Assembly (NCBI GenBank): GCA_000585075.1
Contig: JEMY01000002.1
Span: forward strand, 1-61,970
DNA: 61,970 nt
Direction: 5' to 3'
From: Candidatus Accumulibacter regalis
Lineage (GTDB): Bacteria; Pseudomonadota; Gammaproteobacteria; Burkholderiales; Rhodocyclaceae
Shown one piece after another: positions 3,577 through 23,268 of this stretch; position 1 is the first letter of the stretch, and each line of letters starts with the position of its first letter. Made by a program: the position numbers and the translations under genes. The notes under the pieces were generated by a model. It was not told where the DNA came from. It did no database searches and worked only from the letters and a program-made list of their open reading frames with translations.

Positions 3577-5645
3577 ACGGCCAGCTTGGAGATGTCGGCG
3601 ACCGCATTGAGCTGGTCGAAAAGCGCTTTCAGGAGGCCCAGACGGTTGCCACGCAGCAGGGGTTCGGGAACGTTGACCATCACTTCGGCGAAGAAACGGT
3701 CGACCTCGGCACGTACCGACGCGAGCACCTTCAGCGCGTCGGCGTAGTCCTCGTTGGCGACGTGCGACCTGACCAGCGGGGCGATCAGCAGCACACGTTC
3801 GAAGAGCGCTTTCTCGGCGTCTTCCTCGAGCAGCGCGACGTCCGGTTCGGGCAGCCTGGCGTCGGCTTTTTTCAGGAGGTTGCCGATGCGCTTGTTGGCC
3901 GCGGCCAGGGCCAGCGACTCGGGCAGTCGTTGGAACTCGCGCACCGCCGCCAGGCGGGCGGGAACCCGGTCGATCCGTGTCGGTTGCTGCGCCAGAACCG
4001 CTTCGACGACGTCGATCGAGTGACCGGCGTCTCTCAGCATTCCGCGCAGACGGTCGAGCATGAACGCCAGGAGCGGCTGCTCGACCGCTTCGAGCTTGAT
4101 TCCCTGCGCGCTCAGCGCCTGGCTCGCCTGGCCAATCAATTCCGCCAGGTCGAGCGGCAGCGGCGTCTCCATCAGGATGCGCAGAACGCCGAGGGCGGCG
4201 CGGCGCAGGCCGAAGGGATCCTTGTCGCCGGTGGGCAGCTGGCCGACGCCGAAGAAACCGACCAAGGCGTCGAGTTTGTCGGCCAGAGCGGCGGCGCAGG
4301 CGATGTTCCCCTGCGGCAGGGCATCGCCGGCAAAGCGCGGCCGGTAGTGTTGCTCGACGGCGTCGGCCAGTTCCGGCGGATGGCCTTCGTGGAGCAGGTA
4401 GTAGCGGCCCATGGTCCCCTGCAACTCGGGAAACTCGCCGACCATGTCGGTCAGCAGGTCGACCTTGGCGAGCTGGCCGACCGCTTCGGCGACCTGGCCG
4501 TCGGCACCGAGCTTTTCGGCAATGCTGCGCGCGATGCGGCCCAGGCGCTGGGCCCGGTCGCCCAGCGAGCCGAGCTTGTTGTGATAGACGACTTCACCGA
4601 GACGTCCGGCGCGGGTGGTGAAACCGTTCTTGCGATCCTGGTTGAAGAAGAAACGCGCATCGGCCAGGCGCGGGCGAACGACGCGTTCGTTGCCGCTGAT
4701 GATGGCGCCGGGATCGTCGACCTGCATGTTGGAGACGATCAGGAAGCGGTTGAGAAGCTTGCCGTTGGCGTCGAGCAGCGGGAAGTACTTCTGGTTCTGC
4801 TGCATGGTCAGAATCAGGCATTCCTGTGGCACTTCGAGGTATTCGGCCTCGAACTCACCGGCATAGACGACCGGCCATTCGACCAGCGCCGTGACCTCGT
4901 CAAGCAGGCCAGCGGCCGGATTGATGCTGGCGTCGAGCCGCTTTGCGGCCGCGTCGAGCTGAGCGGCGACCGTGGCACGCCGTTCGGCGAACGAGGCGAT
5001 GACCTTGCCGGCGGCGAGCTTGGCGGCATACTCGGCCGGGTTGCCGACGACGATCTCGCCGGTCGACAGGAAGCGGTGGCCGAGGGTGCTGCGGCCACTG
5101 CGCAGGCCGAGCACGTTGCCGGCGACGATCGTGTCACCGTGCAGGAGGATGAGGCTGTGAACCGGGCGAACGAACTGGTGTTCGGAGTCACCCCAGCGCA
5201 TCACTTTCGGAATCGGCAGCTTCTTCAGTGCCTGGGCGACGATTTCGGCGAGATGCACGTCGAGGTTCTCGCCCTTCTTCTCCAGCCGGGCAACGAAATA
5301 CTCACCCTTGCCGTCGGCGGCCCTGTGCAGTTGCTCGAAACTGACGCCTGCCGAGCGCATGAAGCCCTCGAGTGCCTGCGTTGGCTTTCCGGCCGCGTCG
5401 AGCGCTCCACCGACCGCCGGGCCCTTACGTTCCAGGACGCGGTCGGGCTGGCGTGCGGCGACGCCGGTTATCGTCATGGCTAGCCGGCGGGGAGTGGCGT
5501 ACGGCGTGCAGACGCTGTCGTCGGCGGTGAACTGCTGCCCTTTCAGGGCCGCATGAACGGCGTCGGCGAAAGCTTCGGCGAGCTGGCGCAGCGACTTGGG
5601 CGGCAACTCTTCGGTGCGCAGCTCGATCAGGACGGTGTCGTTCAT
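3573..5645 (-). CDS. glyS: Glycyl-tRNA synthetase beta subunit
   Basis: Beta subunit of the bacterial alpha2beta2 glycyl-tRNA synthetase, responsible for tRNA recognition and needed for charging. The 690-residue product starts MNDTVLIELRTEELPP, the characteristic N-terminus, and matches the length of the E. coli protein (689). The open frame runs 37 codons further upstream into glyQ, but the conserved start lies one base after the glyQ stop. The C-terminal region (about 580-690) has the anticodon-binding character of the family (EDYADALKVLASVRAEVDRFF). Cotranscribed with glyQ upstream and gmhB downstream. Confidence 0.97.
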   Translation of the reverse strand: MNDTVLIELRTEELPPKSLRQLAEAFADAVHAALKGQQFTADDSVCTPYATPRRLAMTITGVAARQPDRVLERKGPAVGGALDAAGKPTQALEGFMRSAGVSFEQLHRAADGKGEYFVARLEKKGENLDVHLAEIVAQALKKLPIPKVMRWGDSEHQFVRPVHSLILLHGDTIVAGNVLGLRSGRSTLGHRFLSTGEIVVGNPAEYAAKLAAGKVIASFAERRATVAAQLDAAAKRLDASINPAAGLLDEVTALVEWPVVYAGEFEAEYLEVPQECLILTMQQNQKYFPLLDANGKLLNRFLIVSNMQVDDPGAIISGNERVVRPRLADARFFFNQDRKNGFTTRAGRLGEVVYHNKLGSLGDRAQRLGRIARSIAEKLGADGQVAEAVGQLAKVDLLTDMVGEFPELQGTMGRYYLLHEGHPPELADAVEQHYRPRFAGDALPQGNIACAAALADKLDALVGFFGVGQLPTGDKDPFGLRRAALGVLRILMETPLPLDLAELIGQASQALSAQGIKLEAVEQPLLAFMLDRLRGMLRDAGHSIDVVEAVLAQQPTRIDRVPARLAAVREFQRLPESLALAAANKRIGNLLKKADARLPEPDVALLEEDAEKALFERVLLIAPLVRSHVANEDYADALKVLASVRAEVDRFFAEVMVNVPEPLLRGNRLGLLKALFDQLNAVADISKLAV

Positions 5646-5646
5646 C

Positions 5647-6552
5647 TCATTGCCCCTCGTCGCCGGTGGTCGTCTTGCACATCGGGAAACCGAGCGCCTG
5701 GCGGGAATCAAGGTAAGCCTGCGCGACTTCACGCGCCAGCGCGCGCACGCGGCCAATGTAGGCTGCGCGTTCGGTCACCGAGATGGCCCCGCGTGCGTCG
5801 AGCAGGTTGAAGACGTGCGAGCACTTCATCACCTTTTCGTAGCCGGGTAGCGCCAGGCCGACGGCGATCAGGCGGCGGGCTTCGGATTCGTGCTCGCTGA
5901 AGTGCCGGAAGAGCATTTCGACGTTGGCGTACTCGAAGTTGTACTTCGACTGCTCGACCTCGTTCTGGTGAAAAACGTCGCCATAGGTCACGCGATAGCC
6001 TGGACCCTCGGCCCAGACCAGGTCGAAAACGTTCTCCACCCCTTGCAGGTACATCGCCAGTCGTTCGATACCGTAGGTGATCTCGCCCAGTACCGGTTTG
6101 CAGGCCAGCGAACCGACTTCCTGGAAATAGGTGAATTGAGTGACTTCCATACCGTCCAGCCAGACTTCCCAGCCGAGTCCCCAGGCACCCAGCGTCGGGC
6201 TTTCCCAGTCATCCTCGACGAAGCGGATGTCGTGCGCGGCGGTATCGATGCCGAGCGCGCGCAGCGACTCGAGATAGAGATCCTGGATGTTCGCCGGCGA
6301 GGGCTTCATGACCACCTGATACTGGTAGTAGTGCTGCAGGCGGTTCGGATTCTCGCCGTAGCGACCGTCCTTCGGGCGGCGCGACGGCTGTACGTAGGCC
6401 GCGTTCCACGGTTCCGGGCCGATGGCGCGCAGGAAGGTCGCCGTGTGGAAGGTGCCGGCACCGACTTCGACGTCGTAAGGTTGCAGCAGCACGCAGCCCT
6501 GTTGATCCCAGAAATTCTGGAGACGCAGGATGACTTCCTGGAACGTAGGCAT
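5647..6552 (-). CDS. glyQ: Glycyl-tRNA synthetase alpha subunit
   Basis: Catalytic class II subunit of heterotetrameric glycyl-tRNA synthetase. The 301-residue product begins [15 protein letters not shown] and contains the highly conserved LLQPYD, GAGTFH and QPSRRP blocks near the N-terminus, the ENPNRLQ block and the [12 protein letters not shown] block. I chose 6552 because the family N-terminus starts there; a 19-codon upstream extension has no family features. It is the first gene of the glyQ-glyS-gmhB-plsC-ygjP run and lies 140 bases after the end of lnt, in which I see no clear terminator. Confidence 0.97.
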
Positions 6553-10623: not shown

Positions 10624-11999
10624 GCGGCCTGCCCTGCGCCATGGCCGACAATCTCGCCGCGCAGCGAGTGCGGCAGCGCCGCGCTGATGCGCACATCGAC
10701 GAATCGATCGAGCCACTCCGTGGCGTCGGCCGAATCGCTGGCGAAATTGACCACCCGGTTATTGTCGGTGCGTCCGGCCAGCTCGCTCTTGTCCTTTCTC
10801 GACAGGCCCTCCACGAGCACCCGCTGCACGCTGCCGACCATGGCCAGCGATACGTCCTGCGCCAGGCCGTCGATGCGCTGCTGCAGGCGCTGCAGGCGTT
10901 CGAGCTTGACCTCTGGCGGCGTGTCGTCGGCGAGATCGGCCGCTGGGGTGCCCGGCCGCGCGCTGTAGATGAACGAGAACGAGGCGTCGAAGCCGACATC
11001 GTCGATCAGCTTCATCGTCTTCGCGAAGTCGTCGGCGGTCTCGCCGGGAAAGCCGACGATGAAGTCGGACGAGAGCGAGAGGTCGGGCCGTGCCGCGCGC
11101 AGCCTGCGCACCAGGCTCTTGTATTCGAGCGCCGTGTAGCCGCGCTTCATCGCCGCCAGGACGCGGTCGGAGCCCGACTGAACGGGCAGATGCAGATGCG
11201 AGACCAGCTTCGGCACGCTGGCGTAGACGTCGATCAGCCGTGCGGTCACCTCGCGCGGGTGCGAGGTGGTGTAGCGGATACGTTCGATTCCCGGGATCTC
11301 TGCGATGTATTCGATGAGCAGCGCCAGATCGGCCGCTTCCTCGCCGGGTAGCGCCTGGCCGTTGCCGGCCATCGCGCCGCGGTAGGCATTGACGTTCTGG
11401 CCGAGCAGGGTCACTTCCCTTACGCCCTGATCGGCCAGGCCGGCGACCTCGGTCAATACGTCATGGAAGGGGCGCGAGACCTCGTCGCCACGCGTGTAGG
11501 GAACGATGCAGAACGAACAGAACTTGCTGCAACCTTCCATGATCGAGACGAAGGCGGTCGCGCCCGTGACGGTCGCTGGCGGCAGCTTGTCGAACTTCTC
11601 GATCTCGGGGAACGAGATGTCGACCTGCGCCCTGCCCAGGCGTCGCCGTTCGGCAATCAACTGCGGCAGGCGGTGCAGCGTCTGCGGTCCGAAAACGACA
11701 TCCACGTAGGGGGCGCGCGCAACGATCGCCGCGCCTTCCTGGCTGGCTACGCAACCGCCAACACCGATTACCAGGTCGGGATTGGCGCGTTTCAGCAGGC
11801 GGACCCTGCCGAGGTCGTGAAAAACGCGTTCCTGCGCTTTCTCGCGTACCGAGCAGGTGTTGAAGAGAATGATGTCGGCGTCGTCGGGGGTGTCGGTCTT
11901 GACGATGTCTTCCGATGCGGCGAGTACGTCGGCCATCTTGTCCGAGTCGTACTCGTTCATCTGGCACCCGAAGGTGCGGATGAACAGTTTTTTGGCCAT
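10620..11999 (-). CDS. miaB: tRNA-2-methylthio-N6-dimethylallyladenosine synthase
   Basis: Radical-SAM methylthiotransferase that makes ms2i6A37 in tRNAs. The N-terminal UPF0004 domain holds the auxiliary cluster cysteines C12, C49 and C83. The radical-SAM cluster motif is C157-x3-C161-x2-C164 (CSKFCSFC). The C-terminal TRAM domain spans roughly 385-450. Length 459 is normal. It is the second gene of a minus-strand run after a small conserved gene that ends 22 bases upstream, and is coupled to phoH by a four-base overlap. Confidence 0.97.
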
Positions 12000-12021
12000 G
12001 TTTTACTTGCGTATGAGGTGA

Positions 12022-12378
12022 CTAGCGTGGGCGAGGCGCCGAGGATTCGCTCGGCGTCAGCATCCAGACGCGATGGATCGCGCCCGAAGCGTTGGGGAGA
12101 TAGACGACTTCCACCGGGCTCTGGACCTGCATTGGCATCACGATCAGGTTTTGCCGGCTACGGATCTGAGCCGTCGGGGCGAGCCGCCATTGCTGGCCGT
12201 CGATGATCAGGAAACCGTCTCCGGTGGGTGGCTGCATGACGCCCTTGCGGGCTTCGTCGGGCAGCGCTCGTGCGAGTCCGGCCGGCTCGTTGAGGATGCG
12301 TGGGTCGGGCGCAGGTTCCATTGCCATCTCGGCGACGCTGCTGAGAATGGTGTATAGGAGGGCGGCAGGGATGTCCAT
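12022..12378 (-). CDS. Conserved hypothetical protein upstream of miaB
   Basis: A 118-residue protein with no signal peptide or membrane segment that I can see. The middle and C-terminal part alternates polar and hydrophobic residues (DGQQWRLAPTAQIRSRQN, VYLPNASGAIHRVWMLT), which suggests a small beta-rich fold. It sits 22 bases before miaB on the same strand, so it is probably cotranscribed with the miaB-phoH-ybeY operon. I do not recognise a family. The spacing and codon pattern favour a real gene, but the function is unknown. Confidence 0.7.
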   Translation of the reverse strand: MDIPAALLYTILSSVAEMAMEPAPDPRILNEPAGLARALPDEARKGVMQPPTGDGFLIIDGQQWRLAPTAQIRSRQNLIVMPMQVQSPVEVVYLPNASGAIHRVWMLTPSESSAPRPR

Positions 12379-12433
12379 CGGGCCATTATAGACACGCTCG
12401 CCGGCGGCTGTCAGCTTTCGGCCGCTTTCGCCG

Positions 12434-12463
12434 TTGTGGCGAGCGCCACAAGCAGCGTAGAAT
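12434..12463 (+). promoter_or_regulatory. Putative sigma70 promoter of tRNA-Gly(CCC)
   Basis: A -35-like TTGTGG at 12434-12439 and a -10-like TAGAAT at 12458-12463 are separated by 18 bases. The -10 lies 10 bases before the tRNA 5' end, as expected for a tRNA promoter. Confidence 0.55.
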
Positions 12464-12473
12464 GGCGACCTTC

Positions 12474-12547
12474 GCGGGCGTCGTATAATGGTAATACCCT
12501 AGCTTCCCAAGCTAGAGCCGAGGGTTCGATTCCCTTCGCCCGCTCCA
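12474..12547 (+). tRNA. tRNA-Gly (anticodon CCC)
   Basis: A 74-nt cloverleaf with CCA encoded. The acceptor stem GCGGGCG pairs with CGCCCGC. The anticodon arm CTAGC-TTCCCAA-GCTAG gives anticodon CCC, reading GGG. The T arm GAGGG-TTCGATT-CCCTT is canonical. It stands alone between the miaB operon and a gene-poor stretch. Confidence 0.95.
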
Positions 12548-13640
12548 CCTCCCCCTAGCGTGGCCTTTCTTGCTGATTCCATGGGGCGTGGCCCTGAGGT
12601 TCGCGAGGCGCCCGGCAAGACTACATCAAGGTAGTCCACGCATGCACGGGAACGCGCGTCTCTGTCGTCGCCCCGGCGGCGTCCAAGCTGTTCGCGTTGC
12701 CGTCCGCGCACGTCTGCGGCCCGCCGTCGGCAAGGCCGCGTACCTGTGCGTGCGCGGTAGCTGGCGGCAGCCTGTGTGCCGCGGCACGGGCAGGTTCCAG
12801 GCCGATCTGACGTTCGCCCATGCAAGGCGCTGCCCTGTGGTCACGGGTGACGATGACCGCTTGGTGATCGGGAAGTGGCACCTCAGCGATGGCTCGCTCG
12901 CGGCACACCCGCAATTCCAGCGTGCTGGTCAACCACGGACAGTCCGCTTGCCGGACTCAGCGAGTTCATGTTTTACTGACGTTTCCGGCCGACCCAGTAG
13001 GCTGGCCTATGCCGACCAGGCACACGCACAAGGTGGCGCAGAGTGTGCCCCTCTAAGGAAGCTCTGACCATGTCCGTCGCTGACCGAGGGTGCAGCGGAC
13101 AAGTGCAACAACACCATGTCATCAACGGAAGCCGCATGCAGCGACCGCCGGCACTGATCGAGCCGCCGAATTCGAAGTCCGGTGTCGGACGCCGTCGGAC
13201 ATCGCTCCCAGTGATCCCGACGATTCACTTCATGCAGCGCTGTTCGGCTACTGCGACGCGGCGGTGGGAGACGCCCTCTACGACCTGCCGCTTCCGACCC
13301 CGTCCGGCGGAGAGGACCTCCCTGCCCGCGGGGGGCGGGGTCAGCTGTGGGGGCCCCGAAAGGCTCGGCTGGCGTCAGGCAGTCATGCCACGCGAAACGA
13401 CCTAAACACTGGTTTCGCGCCATCTCCGCGTGATTGCCATTTCCGGGGCTAGGATTTCGGAGGCTTACCCTCTCGAGCGTCTTCGGCGGTGCTCGTTAAG
13501 ACATCCCCCAAGGTCTGCTGGCCCGGGTTATCGGGGCCTTGTCGCGCTCGTCAGGGCGTTATTTATCAACAACCTGTCCGGAATAATGCCTGGTTTCCGA
13601 CCGCCTTATGCTGAGTGTTAACTCTAGGAAAGAATACAAT
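12548..13640. other. Gene-poor stretch of about 1.1 kb downstream of tRNA-Gly
   Basis: No intact gene is supported here. Overlapping frames up to 165 codons exist on both strands, but none has a convincing ribosome site, a recognisable motif or protein-like composition. No transposase motif, terminal inverted repeat or second copy of the tRNA 3' end was seen. The last 30 bases carry the AGGAAAG ribosome site of the next gene. It could be decayed DNA next to a tRNA, or a long regulatory leader. Confidence 0.5.
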
Positions 13641-16600
13641 ATGGACTTCCCTTCACCTGCTTTAGCCCCGTCATCTGTCAATAAACGGGAATTGAATGCG
13701 GCGATCAATCTTCGACTTGCTCTTCTCGGATTGCCTCTCGCTGCCGACGCCGATGGCGCGTCGATTACGGAGCTGATGTCACCGATCTTGGCGCGTCAGC
13801 GGGAATTGAGCCGTCGACTTTCGGATAAACTTTGCCCTGTCGATACGCGCATTCAGAATTTTCTGAAGGAGTATCTTGCGGATGTTGGCCCGGCGCCACG
13901 GCTGCCGGGTAAAACACTGGTGCTCGATCAGTCCGGTCTGGCGCGTGGCGTTTCGCTGCCGGCCAACGGTGATCTTTTCAAGTCGCCGCTGCTCAGCAGC
14001 TACCGTCTACGCAACGGGGTTCTGCACAATCCCGCCAGTGATCGCCGTACCACTGCGGGCGTTTTTCACATCGCCGATGGCGGTTTGCCGATTCCCGACG
14101 ATAAGCTGGCGGTGCCGAAGATGGCCTTTTCAAAGCTGCTTGCCTTGGCACTGAATCCTCCGCCTGAATCACTGCAGCTACCGTTTACAGCGGGTGAGAA
14201 AGCCCCGGCCATGTGCTTTGTTTCCCTGCTTTTGCGTCCATTGGTGGTGCCTGCCGTGCCAGGCTTTACAACAGAGAAGCGGATGGAAACCCGCTTTTTC
14301 GTTCCCGGTGCCCTGGTGGCCAATCTCGATTTTGTCGAAAGTATTTTTGGCAATGCCGGCGACCCCTATCTGCCTGAAAACGATGCCTCGCTCGACCCGG
14401 ATGGCTGGACCGGCCACACGGGTTGCGTGATTCTCGCGCCGCATCTTACGCATGTACCCAAACACCTGCTCGGTCTTCCGCACTGGGACGCGGCAACACC
14501 GCTGCAACGTCGTGACGGCATGTGCTACAAGAGTGAAACAGAGCTGTATAACGGTGGCAGCGCATTCAAGTTGTGCGCGCGGGACCAGCGTGGCGTAGTC
14601 GTGACCATCATCGCGGACAATTATTTCGGTTACTGCAAGAAAGAGGTGAAAACGCAGATCAGTTATTCGGCGAACATGTTTGGTTCTGCCGAAGAAGAGC
14701 ATTCCGGCGGGGCGCTCGTGTTTCCGAGTTATAACGAGGGTCAGGAGTATACCGACCTGACGGCGGGCGATGCCTACTCGCTGAAAGAGGTTCTGGCCCG
14801 CGACCCTGAACGCTTTTCCGTGCAGCCGGCCGGGCATGCGCTTGATCGTGTTCAGCCGGATGTCGTCCTGGTGCCAGCGAAATCGACCTTCAGTTTGCGA
14901 TCGCAGACCGTCTCGTGGCCAACCCTTGATGGCGATACTCGGTCGATAAAATTGCAGGCCGGTAAGACCTATATGGGCCCCAATGGTTACCGGGTACAAA
15001 TGGAGTCATCGACTGCCGATCATCGTCAGTGGAATCTCGTCGGAACCTCGGCGGAAGTTACGGCCTGTCACAAGCCGGCGACCGTTTCCGGGGGGGGCAA
15101 ATCGGAGATATCCAAAGCGATTTCGGACGCGATACTCGTCGGCCATGTTTACGTCGCCGACCTCGAAAAGGACATGGACGCGGTTGCAGCAATTCTGGCG
15201 CGTGATTTCTCGGAACGCTATAGCGATCAGGAGAGAAACGGCGTTGATAACCGCCTCATACTCAGCAGTGACCGTTCGATTGGTAGCGTCATAAAACTGC
15301 TCACACCGTCGGGCCGCGATTATAACGACGCGTACAACACATGGTTGAGCGCCATTCCACAGCATATCAAGGAACTTGTCTTCGTCGTCAAGCGCTTTCA
15401 CCGCGCAGAGTGGGGCGATAGCTGGCGGAGTCATTATTCGGTAGACCTGATCAACGGTCGTCCCGGGAATTCACTGAAGCTGGACGGGAGAACGCTGGTC
15501 GTGAATACCCTGCGCGTCGGTTTCGAGAAGGACGGCGCCTGGCGTGTCTTCGGCTTGCGCCATGATTTCCACCCGGCCGGCAAAGTGCAGACCGAGGACG
15601 ACATCACGGCCAGCGTGGTAGCCCCCGCCAGAGCGATTGCGGGAGGGGCGGAAACGTTCTCGCAGAAGTTCGTGCAAAACTGCGAGCGTCGCCTGTTTCA
15701 AAGGCCGGACGACGCAATCCATCGCGGCTATGACCGGCAGGCGGAACTGGATCTGGCGACACCGGGGACTTTTATCTCCAACTTCCAGCCGCTTGACGGA
15801 TCGGATGCGCGTGAGCTGGTTGATGACGCCATCGGATTCAGTGAGTTTACCCCACCGATGCAGGACTTGATCAAGGCCGCTGCGAGCGCGCCGGAGGGAT
15901 CGTCACCCGCCTATTTCGTCTCCTCGGCACACCCGCGTCTGGTCGATGGGAAACCGACGAAAAACCCGCGCTATCTGCAACTGCGCCCCGACATCGCGTG
16001 CCCGAATGACACGGCAATTGCCAACCTGGCGATGCGCTTGTTCCGCAGGCAGTCAAGTGCCGAGCCGCTCATTACCCCGGTACATGTGGTCGCCGCCGGC
16101 CGCCGCAACAACCCGCCGGATGATGGCATTCGGCCGCTATGCCCTTACAACCCGTTGCACTACATGGAACTGCCCGAGCTCTTCATCGAGTTCATCAGTT
16201 CGATGACCGGCAAGTCACCCTCGACAACCGGTGCGGGTTCAGAAGGTGCGTTGACCAAAGGGCCGTTCAATGCGCTGCCGGCCATCATCGACCTCAATGC
16301 CGCCTTCGTCTCCTTCGCTCTCACGGGTTACGACGGATGGGTTTCCTCTGCCGGTTACGTCGGGCCGAATGTGCGCGTCGATCATGACGTCAGTTTGCTG
16401 GTGCCCGAGGTCTTTGCGCGCATGAGTCCGAGTGAGCGCGAGGCGAAAAACCTGATTGCCCGGGGCGCCCTGGAGCGCGTCGTCGATTTCGAACACCGTG
16501 GTCAGCCTGTTCTGGCCAGCCGGCTCGGCTACCGGATGACAGCACGGTTGGCGAGCACCTACTTTGGCCGGATATTTCTGCATCCGCATGCCGTGTTCAC

Positions 16601-17069
16601 CGATGAAATGCTGCGCCCCGAGCTGCAGGACATGGACATTTTTGCCGACGGTGTGGCGAATATCGTCGCTACCCACCAGCGGGTTGCCGAAAGTTATTTC
16701 ACCGATGGCACCATTTCGCTAGCCTGCCCACCCCTGCGGGCCGTCCTGGAAATCATGGCCCACGGACAGACAGCGGATGGCCATGGACTTGAATCACTGG
16801 AAGTGCGTTCGCTGTTTTCTCGCGAAAGCGTACTTGCCAGTGATTGGTATGCGGCACGCCTCGACGCCAAGCAACGCGGTGACGAGACGCGGCTGACTCA
16901 TGCGCTGGCCTCGCTATACGATTTCCTTGATCGTAGCGAGAATGCCGAGGTTGCTTCGCGCCTGGGACTCTCGGCGCGCCGTGCTCGGATACAGGACGAA
17001 CGGGTCCTTGTCGGTTCGTCGGAATATCGTGCCGGGCTGGTGGGGACCATCGGCCTGCAACCCCTATAG
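13641..17069 (+). CDS. Putative PPi-type phosphoenolpyruvate carboxykinase
   Basis: A 1142-residue soluble protein with no signal peptide or membrane segment. Length and several blocks match my recollection of the pyrophosphate-dependent PEPCK family described in Entamoeba and Propionibacterium, which interconverts oxaloacetate + PPi and PEP + CO2 + Pi. Blocks used are GHTGCVILAPHL (near residue 258), RRDGMC, ADNYFGYCKKEVKTQ (near 324), EEEHSGGALVFPSYN (near 352) and an N-terminal region reading LARQRELSRRLSDKL and PVDTRIQNFLKEYL. I cannot align it here, so active-site residues are not assigned. The start at 13641 follows AGGAAAG at 13626-13632; the frame opens 11 codons earlier without a ribosome site. 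The DNA is visibly less GC-rich at third positions than its neighbours. No partner gene is adjacent. If the family call is wrong, this is simply a large conserved cytosolic protein. Confidence 0.65.
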   Translation: MDFPSPALAPSSVNKRELNAAINLRLALLGLPLAADADGASITELMSPILARQRELSRRLSDKLCPVDTRIQNFLKEYLADVGPAPRLPGKTLVLDQSGLARGVSLPANGDLFKSPLLSSYRLRNGVLHNPASDRRTTAGVFHIADGGLPIPDDKLAVPKMAFSKLLALALNPPPESLQLPFTAGEKAPAMCFVSLLLRPLVVPAVPGFTTEKRMETRFFVPGALVANLDFVESIFGNAGDPYLPENDASLDPDGWTGHTGCVILAPHLTHVPKHLLGLPHWDAATPLQRRDGMCYKSETELYNGGSAFKLCARDQRGVVVTIIADNYFGYCKKEVKTQISYSANMFGSAEEEHSGGALVFPSYNEGQEYTDLTAGDAYSLKEVLARDPERFSVQPAGHALDRVQPDVVLVPAKSTFSLRSQTVSWPTLDGDTRSIKLQAGKTYMGPNGYRVQMESSTADHRQWNLVGTSAEVTACHKPATVSGGGKSEISKAISDAILVGHVYVADLEKDMDAVAAILARDFSERYSDQERNGVDNRLILSSDRSIGSVIKLLTPSGRDYNDAYNTWLSAIPQHIKELVFVVKRFHRAEWGDSWRSHYSVDLINGRPGNSLKLDGRTLVVNTLRVGFEKDGAWRVFGLRHDFHPAGKVQTEDDITASVVAPARAIAGGAETFSQKFVQNCERRLFQRPDDAIHRGYDRQAELDLATPGTFISNFQPLDGSDARELVDDAIGFSEFTPPMQDLIKAAASAPEGSSPAYFVSSAHPRLVDGKPTKNPRYLQLRPDIACPNDTAIANLAMRLFRRQSSAEPLITPVHVVAAGRRNNPPDDGIRPLCPYNPLHYMELPELFIEFISSMTGKSPSTTGAGSEGALTKGPFNALPAIIDLNAAFVSFALTGYDGWVSSAGYVGPNVRVDHDVSLLVPEVFARMSPSEREAKNLIARGALERVVDFEHRGQPVLASRLGYRMTARLASTYFGRIFLHPHAVFTDEMLRPELQDMDIFADGVANIVATHQRVAESYFTDGTISLACPPLRAVLEIMAHGQTADGHGLESLEVRSLFSRESVLASDWYAARLDAKQRGDETRLTHALASLYDFLDRSENAEVASRLGLSARRARIQDERVLVGSSEYRAGLVGTIGLQPL

Positions 17070-17614
17070 GGCGTGTTGACGAGCGGGCAGTCGCCGCGGC
17101 TGCCCGGTCGTCGGTTTGCACGCTGGTCCAGCAACGATGGAGAGCGTCGCCACGATCGGAGTAGGCGCGGCATTTGGTGATAGCGTCCAGGGCGCTGTCG
17201 CGCAAAGCGTGACGCTTAGCGGCCGGCAGGCCATCGCGACGAACGGCGTGCGGGTCATCGTGACGAATGGCGTTCCCGAGGGTAGCGAGGAGGCTCGGTT
17301 TCGGCCGGGCCTGTCGGTTTTCGGCGTCGCTTCCCAAAGAGTTCGACAGATGTCGCTGTAAGCCCTTGAATGTGCAAAATTTGCCTAGGCAAAATGGGCA
17401 CTACAAACGCTTGGCGGACGGTTCCGGGAGGGCGACGGTGGTGAACAACTCCTTCGGTTCTCGCCAAACGCCGATATACTTCGTTCCTGCGACATGTGCT
17501 TCCGAGCACTGAAGAACACATCCGGCAAGGCAGTCGTGCCCGCCGCGCAGACAGTCCTCGCATTGGCAGGGTTTGCACGCTGGCACGCTGCCATTCACAG
17601 AGGGAGGTCCTGGC
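17070..17614. other. Intergenic region of about 545 bases with a 14-bp palindrome
   Basis: No supported gene. Apart from the stem-loop at its start, the one structured element is a perfect palindrome, TTTGCCTAGGCAAA at 17380-17393, in a locally AT-richer patch; it could be an operator. The right end holds the AGGGAGGT ribosome site (17601-17608) of the next gene. Confidence 0.45.
17078..17112 (+). terminator. Stem-loop just after the PEPCK-like gene
   Basis: CGGGCAG at 17084-17090 pairs with CTGCCCG at 17100-17106, extended by GACGA/TCGTC beyond one G-G mismatch. It begins 8 bases after the stop codon. No clean T-run follows, so it may be a weak terminator or an mRNA 3' stabiliser. Confidence 0.45.
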
Positions 17615-18370
17615 ATGACGGAACAGACAATGTGGCTGATAGGTGGGGCGGCGGTGATTGTCGCTGCGTTGATCGGGTATTTCGTGGGCCGTAGCCCACT
17701 TGGCGGCAAGACCAAACGAGTCGCGGCGCTGGAGGCGGAAGTGTCGCGCCAGCAGGATGAAATCGCCGGTTACAAGCGTGACGTCGAGTCGCACTTCGAC
17801 AAGACCGCTACCCTCGTCGCATCGATGGCCGGCTCTTACAAGGACTTGTTCGAGCATCTGTCGTCAGGTTACGAACAACTTTCCAGTGGATCCGCCCGCC
17901 AGCTCTTCAGGGACCGCGTCGTCGGTCTTTTGGTGGGAAGTGCGGGCGGTGCGACGGTTGCGGAGGCTACTTCTTCGGACAAGGTATCGGCGGCGCTGAT
18001 CGCCGCTGGCGCGCAACCGCGTGAACTCTCCCCGAAAAAAGGGCAGGGTAGCGAGGCCGAACGATCGGCTGCGGCGGGCGCCGAGGCCGAAGCGGATGCC
18101 AAGGACGTCGCTGCCCCCGCGGACGCTGAAGCGGCGATGGGTACTGCGGCTGAGGGTGAACCGGCACAGCAGGCCGAGAAGAGCAGCAGCGAAGGATTGA
18201 CGACGCCGGCGGGCGCCGAGAGCAAGCCCGCAGGCGACGTGAAAGCCGCATCGGAAGGGCAGGCGAAGCCCGGCGAAAAGGCTGGAGCCGCTGCCGGGGC
18301 TACGGACGAAGGTGGCGACGATAGCGCCGGGAAGGGTGCCGGCAAGGATAACGGCGTCCGCAAGTCGTGA
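17615..18370 (+). CDS. ZapG/YhcB-like (DUF1043) inner-membrane protein with a long disordered tail
   Basis: A 251-residue protein with an N-terminal membrane helix (residues about 5-24, ending in GRSP), then a predicted coiled coil (about 32-85, with the family-like HFDKTATLVASMAGSYKDLFEHLSSGYEQL). This head matches the DUF1043/YhcB (ZapG) family, linked to division and envelope synthesis in E. coli. The rest, from about residue 125, is a low-complexity Ala/Glu/Gly/Lys-rich tail, much longer than in typical YhcB (about 130 residues in total). The start at 17615 follows a strong AGGGAGGT. Monocistronic as far as can be seen. Confidence 0.82.
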   Translation: MTEQTMWLIGGAAVIVAALIGYFVGRSPLGGKTKRVAALEAEVSRQQDEIAGYKRDVESHFDKTATLVASMAGSYKDLFEHLSSGYEQLSSGSARQLFRDRVVGLLVGSAGGATVAEATSSDKVSAALIAAGAQPRELSPKKGQGSEAERSAAAGAEAEADAKDVAAPADAEAAMGTAAEGEPAQQAEKSSSEGLTTPAGAESKPAGDVKAASEGQAKPGEKAGAAAGATDEGGDDSAGKGAGKDNGVRKS

Positions 18371-18495: not shown

Positions 18496-19551
18496 TCAGC
18501 GCTTGAAGCGCTCCTCGGCGAGCGCGTCGGCGACCTCTCCGGTGGGCCGCGCTTCCCTGTCGGCGCGTTCGAAAATCTCCAGCAGGGTGTCGTGGATGCC
18601 TTCGACGTGCCGCAGCAGGGCAGCGCGCTGGAAGCCGATCCGCTCGTGATAGATGTCGATGATCCCGCCGGCGTTGATCACGTAGTCCGGCGCGTAGAGT
18701 ATGCCGCGATGCATCAGCGCGCTGCCGTGGCGGACCTCGGCCAGCTGGTTGTTGGCGGCGCCGGCGACGATGCTGGCGTGCAGCTGCGGGATGGTTTCGT
18801 CATTGAGGATGGCGCCCAACGCGCAGGGCGCGAAGACGTCCACGTTGGCCGCGTAGATGGCTTCCGGAGCGAGCGCGCTGGCGCCGAGTTCGGTGCGCGC
18901 CCGGACCAGGTTTTCTTCGTGGATGTCGCTTACCCATAATTCCGCGCCGGCTTCCTTGAGCTGGCGGGCGAGGTCGAAGCCGACATTGCCGACGCCCTGG
19001 ATCGCCACCCGCAAGCCGTCTAGCGAGTCACGTCCGAGCTTGCGCTTGACCGCTGCCTTGATGCCGAAGAAGGTGCCGTAGGCGGTGGCCGGCGAGGGGT
19101 CGCCGCTGCGCATTCCCTCGGCCTCGTGCGAGGGCTTGTCTTCGATGCCGGCGACGTGCGGCGTGCGTTCGGCGAGATATTTCATGTCGGCGACGCTGGT
19201 CCCCGAGTCTTCGGCGGCGACGTAGCGACCGTTGAGCTGGTTGAGCGCGCGGGCGAAGGCGTCGAGCAGCGCCGGCGTCTTGTCGGTGCGCGGATTGCCG
19301 ATGATCACCGACTTGCCGCCACCGAGCTTGAGGCCGGCCAGGGCAGATTTGTAGGTCATGCCGCGCGACAGACGCAGCACGTCGCGGATGGCGTCGTCCT
19401 CGGTGGCGTAGTGCCACATGCGGCAGCCGCCAAGCGCCGGTCCGAGATTGGAGTTGTGCACGGCGATGATCGCTTTCAGGCCGCTGGCATCGTCGCTGCA
19501 GAAAACCACTTGTTCGTGATCGGCAAAATCAGGCAGGGAAAAAACGGACAT
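18496..19551 (-). CDS. Leucine dehydrogenase (Glu/Leu/Phe/Val dehydrogenase family)
   Basis: NAD-dependent oxidative deaminase converting branched-chain amino acids, probably leucine or valine, to 2-oxo acids. Length 351 fits leucine dehydrogenase. The substrate and catalytic lysines K68 (MTYKSAL) and K80 (LGGGKSV) lie at the numbering of the Bacillus enzyme, and the Rossmann motif GVGNVG lies in the second half. The start at 19551 has AAGGAAAG upstream. The gene follows the indolepyruvate ferredoxin oxidoreductase gene on the same strand (111 bases apart), and its 2-oxo acid product could feed that kind of enzyme. Valine or phenylalanine dehydrogenase is an alternative within the family. Confidence 0.9.
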
Positions 19552-19662: not shown

Positions 19663-22600
19663 TCAGGCCGAGACCTTGCTCGTCGGCAGCGGTTGCATGA
19701 CCTGCACGCTCGGCGCGCTCCGGCCGTTGAAGCGTGCCAGCAGCTCCTGCTGCTGTTCACGGGCATGCGTGACATAGCGCTCGCGGATGTGGCCGAAGCC
19801 ACGGATTTGCTCGGGCAGGCTGGCCAGTTCGACGGCCAGTTCATGGTTGCTGGTCTTGAGCCCGGTGAGAAGGGACTCGATGAGCCCCTCGTACTCGGCG
19901 ATCAATTGCCGGTCGAGCTTGCGCTCGGCGCTGCGCGCGAAGATGTCGAAGGAGCCGCCGCGCAGCTGTTTGCAGCCCGCCAGGAGACGCATGGCCTTGA
20001 GCATCCACGGTCCGAAAGTACGCTTCCTGAGCTGCCCGGTGGCCGGGTCCTTGCTGGCCAGCAGTGGCGGTGCGAGGTGGAAGACCAGCTTGTAGTCGCC
20101 TTCGAACTGCGCCTCGACGCCCTTGAGGAAGGCGCTGTTGGTGTACAGGCGGGCCACTTCATACTCGTCCTTGTACGCCAGCAGCTTGTAGTAGCCGCGC
20201 GCGACCGCCTCGGCGAGCAGCGAGACTCCCGGCGTCAGCGCCTCTTCGGCGGCGCGCACGCGCTTGACCAGCGTCAGGTAACGCTCGGCGTAGGCGGCGT
20301 CCTGATACTCGCCGAGCTGCTCCCGGCGGCGGGCAATCAACTCGTCGACGCTGGCCGAGACGCGGTGGTGGTCGGGGACGTGCGCCGGTTGCGCGGCCTT
20401 GACCACGGCCGCCATATCGACTGCCGCGACGCGGCCCCACTGGAACGCCGTGGTGTTGGCAGCGACCGCCGCGGCGTTGATCTCGATGGCCCTCAGGATG
20501 GCCTGGCGTGACAACGGCACCAGGCCTTTCTGCCAGGCGAAGCCGAGCATGAACAGGTTGGTGGCGATGGCATCGCCCATGATCGCCGTCGCCAGGCGCG
20601 AAGCTTCCAGGAAATCGGCGCTGTCGCTACCGACGGCGTCGGCAATGCGTGCTTCCATGGCGTCCTGCGGGAACTGTGGATCCGGGTTCCGGGCCACGTC
20701 GCCGCTGCGTGCCTGCGCGGCAAAGCCGCGCACGAAATCGCTGGTCGTGCTCTGGTCGCGGTTGATCACCACGCGCGTGTGGCCGGCGCGCATCTTGGCG
20801 ATCGATTCGTCGCTGGCGGCGACGACCAGGTCGCAGGCGATCACCGCGTTGGCTTCGCCGGCGGCGACGCGCGCCGCGTAGAGTTGCTCCTGGCGGTCGG
20901 CGATGCGTACGTGCGACCAGACAGCACCGCCTTTCTGCGCCAGGCCGGCCATGTCGAGCACCAGCACGCCCTTGCTTTCGAGGTGCGCCGCCATCCCCAA
21001 CAGCGCGCCAATGGTCACCACGCCGGTGCCGCCAACGCCGGTGACGAGCATGCTCCACGGCGTCGCCGTACCGGGCAGCGTGGCTTCGGGCAGTTGCGCG
21101 AAAAGGGCTGCACCCGGCGTCGCCGCCTTGCCTTTCTTCAGCGCGCCGCCTTCGATGGTCACGAAACTCGGGCAGAAACCCTTGAGGCAGGAGAAGTCCT
21201 TGTTGCAGGCCGACTGGTCGATCGCCCGCTTGCGCCCGAACTCGGTCTCGACGGCGACCACCGACATGCAGTTGGATTTCTCCGAGCAGTCGCCGCAGCC
21301 TTCGCAAACCAGGTCGTTGATGACCACCCGCCGGGCTGGATCGGGAAACTTGCCGCGCTTGCGACGACGGCGCTTCTCGGCGGCACAGGTCTGGTCGTAG
21401 ATGATCGCGGTCGTGCCCGGCAGGGCGCGCAGCTCGCGCTGCACGCTGTCCAGCTCGTCGCGGTGACGCACCGGCGTTCCCGACGGCAGCCCGCTGTCGC
21501 CGCGGTATTTCTGCGGTTCGTCGGTGACCACGACGATGGTCTTGATGCCCTCGGCGGCGATTTGCCGGGCGATGATCGGCACGCTCAGCGGGCCGTCGTG
21601 CGGCTGCCCACCGGTCATGGCGACGGCGTCGTTGTAGAGAATCTTGTAGGTGATGTTCACCCCGGCAGCGATCGACTGGCGGATGGCCAGCAGCCCGGAG
21701 TGGAAATAGGTGCCGTCGCCGAGGTTGGCAAAGACGTGCGGGGTGCTGGTGAACGGCGACTGGCCGACCCAGGCCACGCCTTCACCCCCCATCTGGCAGA
21801 AGGTCTGCGTCGATTCGGGCGACAGCCAGGTGGCCATGTAGTGGCAGCCGATGCCGGCCAGCGCGCGCGAGCCTTGCGGAACCCTGGTCGAAGTGTTGTG
21901 CGGGCAGCCCGAGCAGTAGTGCGGAATGCGCGCGATGGCGCGGTTCGGCTTGGCCAGCGCGGCCTCCTTCTCTTCGAGGAAGGCGAGACGCGCGGCGACG
22001 CGCTCGGAGGTGTAATAGATGGCGATGCGCGCGGCGATGACGCGGGCGATCATCGCCGGCGTCAGCTCTCCGGCGGCGGGCAGCAGCCATTCCGCGTGCG
22101 GCAGCGACCATTCCCCTTTCTCGTCGAACTTGCCGATGACGCGCGGTCGCGCCGACTCGCTCCAGTTGTAGAGCTCTTCCTTGAGCTGGTATTCGAGGAA
22201 CTGGCGCTTCTCCTCGATGACCAGGATTTCTTCCAGCCCTTCGGCGAAGCGGCGAACGCCTTCCGCCTCCAGCGGCCAGACCATACCCACCTTGTACAGG
22301 CGCAGGCCGATCTTCGCCGCCACGGCGTCGTCGATGCCCAGATCTTCGAGGGCCTGGCGCACATCCAGATAGCTCTTGCCGCTGGTAACGATCCCCAGGC
22401 GCGGCGTCGGGCTGTCGATGACCACCCTGTTCAGCTGGTTGGCGCGGCAATAGGCCAGCGCAGCGTAAAGCTTGTGGTGCAGCAGACGCTTTTCCTGCAC
22501 CAGCGGCGGATCCGGCCAGCGCAGGTTGAGGCCGTCGGCGGGCAGCGGAAACTCGCCCGGGATGATGGTTTCGACGGCAAAGGGGTCGACATTCACCGAA

Positions 22601-23268
22601 GCCGAGGTCTCGACGGTGTCGGCGAGTGCCTTGAACGCCACCCAGCAGCCCGAGTAGCGCGACAGCGCAAAACCGTGAATGCCGAGCTCCAGATACTCCT
22701 GGATGTCGGCCGGCGCCAGCACCGGCATCATCAGCGCCTTGAATACGTGCTCGGTCTGGTGCGGCAGGGTCGACGACTTGGCCGCATGGTCGTCGCCGGC
22801 AATCGCCAGCACGCCGCCGTATTTCGAGGTACCCGCTGCGTTGGCGTGGCGGAAGACGTCGCCGGTGCGATCGACGCCCGGTCCCTTGCCGTACCACATG
22901 GCAAAGACGCCGTCGTAGCGGGCGTTCTTGTCGAGAGTCACCTGCTGCGTGCCCCACACCGCGGTTGCTGCCAGGTCTTCGTTCAGCCCGGCCTGGAAAC
23001 GGATGTGCCTGGTTTCGAGAAATTTCTTCGCTCGCCAGAACTCTTGGTCGACGTTGCCCAGCGGTGAACCGCGGTAGCCGCTGACAAAGCCGGCGGTGTT
23101 CAATCCGGCGCGTTCGTCGCGCGCACGCTGCAGCATGGGCAGGCGCACCAGCGCCTGGGTTCCGTTCAGATAGACACGACCGCTGGCCAACTGGTACTTG
23201 TCATCCAGCGCGACGGTGCGCAGCGTGACGTCTCCGGCACCTCCGGTGTTCTTCTGCGGTGCATCCAT
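19663..23268 (-). CDS. Fused indolepyruvate ferredoxin oxidoreductase (IorA-ferredoxin-IorB type)
   Basis: Large TPP and Fe-S enzyme that oxidatively decarboxylates aryl or branched 2-oxo acids to acyl-CoA. The 1201 residues contain, in order: an N-terminal pyruvate:ferredoxin-like domain (GFVSGYRGSPLG); a TPP-binding part with CSGCPHN and GDGTYFHSG; a cysteine-rich region (CEGCGDCSEKSNC plus later Cys residues) for an Fe-S cluster; the gamma/IorB-like domain (TGVGGTGVVTIG); and a C-terminal DUF6537-like region. Such single-chain fusions are typical of Proteobacteria. The start has GAGGAG upstream. It is divergent from a LysR gene across a 106-base gap and precedes leucine dehydrogenase, which suggests a pathway for amino-acid oxidation. 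Confidence 0.93.
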   Translation of the reverse strand: MDAPQKNTGGAGDVTLRTVALDDKYQLASGRVYLNGTQALVRLPMLQRARDERAGLNTAGFVSGYRGSPLGNVDQEFWRAKKFLETRHIRFQAGLNEDLAATAVWGTQQVTLDKNARYDGVFAMWYGKGPGVDRTGDVFRHANAAGTSKYGGVLAIAGDDHAAKSSTLPHQTEHVFKALMMPVLAPADIQEYLELGIHGFALSRYSGCWVAFKALADTVETSASVNVDPFAVETIIPGEFPLPADGLNLRWPDPPLVQEKRLLHHKLYAALAYCRANQLNRVVIDSPTPRLGIVTSGKSYLDVRQALEDLGIDDAVAAKIGLRLYKVGMVWPLEAEGVRRFAEGLEEILVIEEKRQFLEYQLKEELYNWSESARPRVIGKFDEKGEWSLPHAEWLLPAAGELTPAMIARVIAARIAIYYTSERVAARLAFLEEKEAALAKPNRAIARIPHYCSGCPHNTSTRVPQGSRALAGIGCHYMATWLSPESTQTFCQMGGEGVAWVGQSPFTSTPHVFANLGDGTYFHSGLLAIRQSIAAGVNITYKILYNDAVAMTGGQPHDGPLSVPIIARQIAAEGIKTIVVVTDEPQKYRGDSGLPSGTPVRHRDELDSVQRELRALPGTTAIIYDQTCAAEKRRRRKRGKFPDPARRVVINDLVCEGCGDCSEKSNCMSVVAVETEFGRKRAIDQSACNKDFSCLKGFCPSFVTIEGGALKKGKAATPGAALFAQLPEATLPGTATPWSMLVTGVGGTGVVTIGALLGMAAHLESKGVLVLDMAGLAQKGGAVWSHVRIADRQEQLYAARVAAGEANAVIACDLVVAASDESIAKMRAGHTRVVINRDQSTTSDFVRGFAAQARSGDVARNPDPQFPQDAMEARIADAVGSDSADFLEASRLATAIMGDAIATNLFMLGFAWQKGLVPLSRQAILRAIEINAAAVAANTTAFQWGRVAAVDMAAVVKAAQPAHVPDHHRVSASVDELIARRREQLGEYQDAAYAERYLTLVKRVRAAEEALTPGVSLLAEAVARGYYKLLAYKDEYEVARLYTNSAFLKGVEAQFEGDYKLVFHLAPPLLASKDPATGQLRKRTFGPWMLKAMRLLAGCKQLRGGSFDIFARSAERKLDRQLIAEYEGLIESLLTGLKTSNHELAVELASLPEQIRGFGHIRERYVTHAREQQQELLARFNGRSAPSVQVMQPLPTSKVSA

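Follow-up and report, generated by a model that had tools for sequence, protein, structure and literature searches.

Gene, family and fold

The window is a stretch of 61,970 nucleotides from Candidatus Accumulibacter regalis (contig JEMY01000002.1), and the gene considered here lies on its forward strand (Table 1). Its predicted product is almost certainly a pyrophosphate (PPi)-dependent phosphoenolpyruvate (PEP) carboxykinase (PPi-PEPCK, EC 4.1.1.38), as judged by homology and structure comparison. The open frame spans 13608-17069, and translation from the ATG at 13641 yields the 1142 residues given in the original prediction, which had linked the protein to the PPi-type PEPCK family. We prefer this ATG over a start at 13608 because a Shine-Dalgarno-like AGGAAAG sits just 5' of it. 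An ATG or GTG occupies the same column in five of six relatives in the upstream alignment, a weak agreement, since most slices were cut at starts that we had picked. The protein is the single match of its kind in the whole genome (4,626,262 bases in 85 contigs, listed as 100% complete).

A phmmer search against the PDB sequences returned only two matches up to E 1, namely 8e1u_A ('PPi-dependent PEPCK', 1499.9 bits, query residues 11-1141) and 6k31_A ('AiPEPCK', 1472.4 bits, query residues 16-1141). By sequence score, near full-length matches at 1472-1500 bits are not chance. The solved PPi-type members are 1131 and 1153 residues long, close to the window protein, and structure comparison shows that it has their fold, with a recognisable PEPCK-like core. 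Thus the family link proposed in the original prediction is supported by both sequence and structure. The hidden Markov model search suggested there was uninformative with the libraries used: Pfam-A and NCBIfam scans gave zero matches up to E 1, and we are unsure whether these libraries hold a model of the family. The protein was likewise unmatched by the ATP-type PEPCK model PF01293 and the GTP-type models PF00821 and NF003253, and a PF00821 search of the genome matched only contig C29. Aligned by hhalign with the GTP-dependent enzyme (GTP-PEPCK) of the same genome, the PPi-PEPCK alignment gave a probability of 0.3%, an undetectable similarity; the two folds are related despite this. The window protein adds one more member to the already known family of an uncommon enzyme.

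We aligned the window protein with 37 relatives at 53-93% identity. Among the many positions invariant in all 38 sequences are most of residues 325-335 (ADNYFGYCKKE), 351-354 (EEEH), 483-489 (SGGGKSE) and most of 856-873. The translation contains the three sequence blocks quoted in the original prediction, each of them made up in part of invariant positions. Homology establishes membership of a family without proof of activity, which leaves room for a divergent paralogue that is inactive or acts on another substrate. We regard this as most improbable: SGGGKSE and most other signature-block positions do not vary among the 38 sequences, the blocks are matched as well in alignments with the solved 8e1u and 6k31 sequences, and the frame is free of internal stops.

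Distribution and probable lateral exchange

PPi-PEPCK is an accessory gene in Accumulibacter. It was found in 5 of 28 genomes of the genus, one copy being cut by a contig end, and in 4 of the 23 genomes with at least 90% completeness and at most 5% contamination. Two single-contig genomes (G018 and G158) have no match, so absence does not reflect mere incompleteness. GTP-PEPCK is present in all 28 genomes. A second GTP-PEPCK match occurs in seven of the 23 non-carriers (one is a fragment), and all five carriers have one each; the chance of zero carriers among seven two-match genomes is ~0.2 by hand calculation, which is not significant. Across the family, 6 of 199 sampled genomes carry PPi-PEPCK. 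Relatives in named genomes number at least 569 confirmed, of which 80 were kept; carriers among the matches listed include Propionivibrio, Propionibacteriaceae, Actinomyces, Opitutaceae and other Verrucomicrobia.

The core-gene control, third-position identity, composition and shared upstream DNA together make it highly likely that the gene was exchanged laterally between Accumulibacter and the lineage of Candidatus Propionivibrio aalborgensis. In the PPi-PEPCK tree, the window, three other Accumulibacter sequences (L002, L003 and L089) and P. aalborgensis (L031) form a group of five inside Propionivibrio and its relatives. In the tree of MiaB, our core-gene control, a single clade unites 15 Accumulibacter rows (99/98), and the partner of P. 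aalborgensis is Propionivibrio EsbE (L004) (99/97). A published genome tree places P. aalborgensis with P. dicarboxylicus (PMC9238405).

Could the gene instead have been inherited vertically, present in the ancestor that Accumulibacter and Propionivibrio share and later lost by most Accumulibacter? Both genera do carry it, and four Accumulibacter sequences held as one clade beside P. aalborgensis were not rejected by the approximately unbiased (AU) test (p 0.651). Other tests speak against such descent. Holding P. aalborgensis and EsbE together, as they stand in the MiaB tree, was rejected for PPi-PEPCK (p-AU 2.6e-7), as was a clade of the seven named Propionivibrio rows (p-AU 1e-67). The one-clade test thus failed to separate transfer from vertical descent, and the latter two did separate them.

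Third codon positions point the same way. Between the window and P. aalborgensis, identity is 70.6% for PPi-PEPCK, 52.8% for MiaB and 60.5% for PhoH, whereas four congeners show 69.3-72.5%, 71.4-80.0% and 74.4-80.7%, respectively. P. aalborgensis is therefore as near as the congeners for PPi-PEPCK but not for the two controls. The gene is not simply slow-changing, because in comparisons with seven other relatives MiaB is every time the more similar of the two (PPi-PEPCK, 44.4-57.7%). Its G+C content (0.588) is the lowest of the 22 window open reading frames (ORFs) measured, and its third-position G+C (GC3, 0.659) is the second lowest, with a median near 0.81. The P. aalborgensis copy has a GC3 of 0.657 in flanks of 58% G+C. 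About 250 bp of upstream DNA can be aligned between P. aalborgensis and the Accumulibacter carriers, and not convincingly with EsbE. The low G+C and GC3, and a genomic position that differs between the two genera, also argue against vertical descent, which we consider improbable.

Several points weigh against lateral exchange as the explanation. Both rejected clades were chosen after the tree was known, and five rows were omitted from that test. Since a single Accumulibacter clade was not rejected, the tree alone carries no donor information. MiaB and PhoH are adjacent and so count as one control region, and three other window ORFs also have a GC3 below 0.70. We nevertheless favour exchange, and the transfer probably ran into Accumulibacter rather than out of it; nesting, composition and a setting common to the Propionivibrio-like loci favour Propionivibrio as donor.

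Genomic site and upstream region

Table 1. Features at the PPi-PEPCK locus, in window positions.
Feature	Position	Strand	Remarks
tRNA-Gly (CCC)	12474..12547	+	Precedes PPi-PEPCK in 4 of 5 Accumulibacter carriers
Distal shared upstream block	12945..13059 (approximate ends)		Common to P. aalborgensis and Accumulibacter carriers
~450 bp splitting the shared upstream region	13060..13512 (approximate ends)		Absent there in 4 other Accumulibacter carriers and P. aalborgensis
Gene-proximal upstream segment	13513..13640 (left end approximate)	+	Aligns with 4 Accumulibacter carriers and P. aalborgensis; includes AGGAAAG
Predicted PPi-type PEP carboxykinase gene, 1142 residues	13641..17069 (stop codon included)	+	Sequence homology, conserved blocks, fold

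From the alignments, the distal block probably travelled together with the gene. In the other carriers, the two upstream blocks on either side of the ~450 bp are close neighbours. Positions 13041-13534 are unmatched in any compared locus outside this genome. Neither direct nor inverted repeats were found in 12548-13660, so nothing there points to a simple transposable element. A scan of 12400-17700 gave 11 terminator-like sites against a shuffle mean of 5.4. Rfam reported only the tRNA over 11900-18000.

All 28 genomes of the genus contain matches to the MiaB-tRNA-Gly(CCC) stretch, with the MiaB and tRNA parts on separate contigs in some. From the tRNA to the PPi-PEPCK gene the distance is ~1.1 kb in the window, 0.5 kb in G199, 2.4 kb in G201 and 9.6 kb in G204; in the fifth carrier, G219, the gene lies on a different contig from this stretch. 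The flank between tRNA and gene is variable, since within the 9.6 kb of G204 lie a gene for a TIR/AAA protein and further ORFs unmatched in the window. That TIR/AAA protein (L130:8157-9674) has a defence-like make-up.

Two Propionivibrio-like loci contain, divergent from PPi-PEPCK, a stretch 24-25% identical to the window's LysR protein (L009:7036-7752 and L040:4509-5225), which by sequence is a possible regulator. In the window, no ORF of LysR-like length lies between tRNA-Gly and the gene. Downstream of PPi-PEPCK, 19663-23268 on the reverse strand encodes a single-chain 1201-residue 2-oxoacid oxidoreductase with POR and DUF6537 domains, presumably of the indolepyruvate type. A Glu/Leu/Phe/Val-type dehydrogenase at 18496-19551 adjoins it.

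Metabolic setting, direction and known systems

The host is Candidatus Accumulibacter, a genus described as a polyphosphate-accumulating organism with polyhydroxyalkanoate (PHA) and glycogen storage (PMC9238405). At the level of the genus, the polyphosphate/PHA host of the original prediction stands. We searched the same genome for enzymes of the oxaloacetate/PEP node and of PPi metabolism. Matches above the model cut-offs were obtained for GTP-PEPCK (NF003253, 982.4 bits, cut-off 504), PEP carboxylase (NF000584, 1218.3 bits, cut-off 815), pyruvate phosphate dikinase (TIGR01828, 1294.6 bits, cut-off 843.45, scored on part of the frame), PPi-dependent phosphofructokinase (PPi-PFK; NF005482, 780.8 bits, cut-off 446, with TIGR02477 slightly below its own), a second, two-domain phosphofructokinase (TIGR02478, 1017.2 bits, cut-off 708.4) and two membrane pyrophosphatases (NF001951, 1177.1 bits, cut-off 859; NF001950, 1358.9 bits, cut-off 826). 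ATP-dependent PEPCK was not found in the genome search. By homology, three further kinds of PPi-making or PPi-using enzyme are thus encoded, and the node appears to hold GTP-PEPCK and PEP carboxylase alongside PPi-PEPCK. The proposed tie of the anaplerotic node to PPi must be corrected in this respect: PPi-PEPCK is not the sole enzyme there. The gene pfp, for PPi-PFK, is listed among Accumulibacter glycolysis genes (PMC12766714).

Two details of these enzymes stand apart. The two-domain phosphofructokinase (742 residues; L094:1477-3702, contig C36 of the window's genome, G000, with PFK matches at 4278-6290) fits a eukaryote-type model, TIGR02478, and a membrane pyrophosphatase is encoded on the same strand ~1 kb upstream of its gene. 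A membrane pyrophosphatase frame on contig C70 (L092:1468-3909; 814 residues from the first Met) resembles OmpA over residues 716-812, a match below the curated cut-off of that model.

PPi-PEPCK would interconvert PEP, CO2 and inorganic phosphate (Pi) with oxaloacetate and PPi. In the anaerobic phase, polyphosphate breakdown would raise Pi and glycogen breakdown would supply PEP, which may drive the reaction towards oxaloacetate. Oxaloacetate would enter the reductive branch to succinate and propionyl-CoA, and the energy saved as PPi could be used by PPi-PFK or the membrane pyrophosphatases. That oxaloacetate formation in the anaerobic phase, feeding this branch, is the main direction is plausible, and we put it forward tentatively. 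The reverse is quite possible too: on biosynthetic PPi, the enzyme could run mainly towards PEP, serving aerobic gluconeogenesis and the rebuilding of glycogen. The reaction is reversible, and cell extracts of Methylotuvimicrobium alcaliphilum led to an inferred malate-to-PEP role for its PPi-PEPCK (PMC6860931). On the other hand, GTP-PEPCK is already available for the PEP direction in 28 of 28 genomes, and two membrane pyrophosphatases would tend to hold PPi low. The carriers Propionibacterium and Propionivibrio suggest, from their general physiology, a succinate/propionate role, which is not decisive.

As an overall explanation, a laterally exchanged PPi-PEPCK has our considerable confidence, with catalysis, direction and the polyphosphate link as its inferred parts. 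Some observations count against it. Catalytic activity is assigned from homology, and GTP-PEPCK and PEP carboxylase are redundant routes that could carry the flux. The gene seems dispensable for the lifestyle of the genus, because 23 of the 28 genomes lack a match. The ~450 bp upstream insertion could alter expression, and no sigma-70-like site was found in 12400-17700 (shuffle mean 1.5). A wider proposal, speculative and on balance unlikely, concerns the minority of Accumulibacter that carry the gene: with an enzyme gained from a glycogen-accumulating competitor, they would link the breakdown of polyphosphate to carbon fixation, Pi set free in the anaerobic phase driving the reaction from PEP and CO2 to oxaloacetate and PPi. 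This PPi would power glycolysis through PPi-PFK and charge the membrane via pyrophosphatase, and the energy of polyphosphate would be regained as PPi besides ATP.

We found no description of PPi-PEPCK in Accumulibacter in the literature searched, which covered few subscription papers and included PMC6593406. A 'pepck' gene with an FNR motif is reported in a few Accumulibacter genomes, its type unstated (PMC6446978), and an ATP-PEPCK is described in Thiothrix (PMC7767063). For P. aalborgensis, the genome paper mentions PEP carboxylase (PMC4930944), and in a term search of its main text 'PEP carboxykinase', 'PEPCK', 'pyrophosphate' and 'PPi' were all absent. Interest is added by the patchy presence of PPi-PEPCK in a polyphosphate accumulator already equipped with GTP-PEPCK, by the other PPi enzymes encoded in the genome, and by the highly likely exchange of the gene with a glycogen-accumulating competitor. 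Wastewater treatment relies on Accumulibacter for biological phosphorus removal, and in the same plants Propionivibrio competes with it as a glycogen accumulator. Where strains differ in their anaerobic energy yield and in forming propionyl-CoA, an accessory enzyme of Pi, PPi and CO2 fixation exchanged between these rivals could be the reason, and models with GTP-PEPCK or PEP carboxylase alone would misstate the energy balance of carrier species.

Among known systems, a close one is the PPi-dependent PEPCK of Propionibacterium freudenreichii (PDB 8e1u; PEP carboxytransphosphorylase). Its host is a propionic fermenter, whereas the window enzyme, known from sequence, belongs to a betaproteobacterial polyphosphate accumulator. 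The 6k31 enzyme, which we take to come from Actinomyces israelii, likewise differs in host and genomic setting. Within the same genome, GTP-PEPCK (NF003253) has 611 residues against 1142. Nearest are the PPi-PEPCKs of P. aalborgensis and of Accumulibacter loci L002 and L003, which are 91-93% identical to the window protein and have upstream DNA in common with it. The surroundings differ: in the Propionivibrio-type loci L031, L004 and L005-L007, a related flavin mononucleotide (FMN)-oxidoreductase gene lies 0.5-4 kb upstream of PPi-PEPCK (copies 78-82% identical to that of L031 or L004; only the L031 copy was searched with Pfam), and in all of these but L004 tRNA-Tyr/Gly/Thr follow 0.8-2.4 kb downstream, whereas the window gene itself follows tRNA-Gly(CCC).
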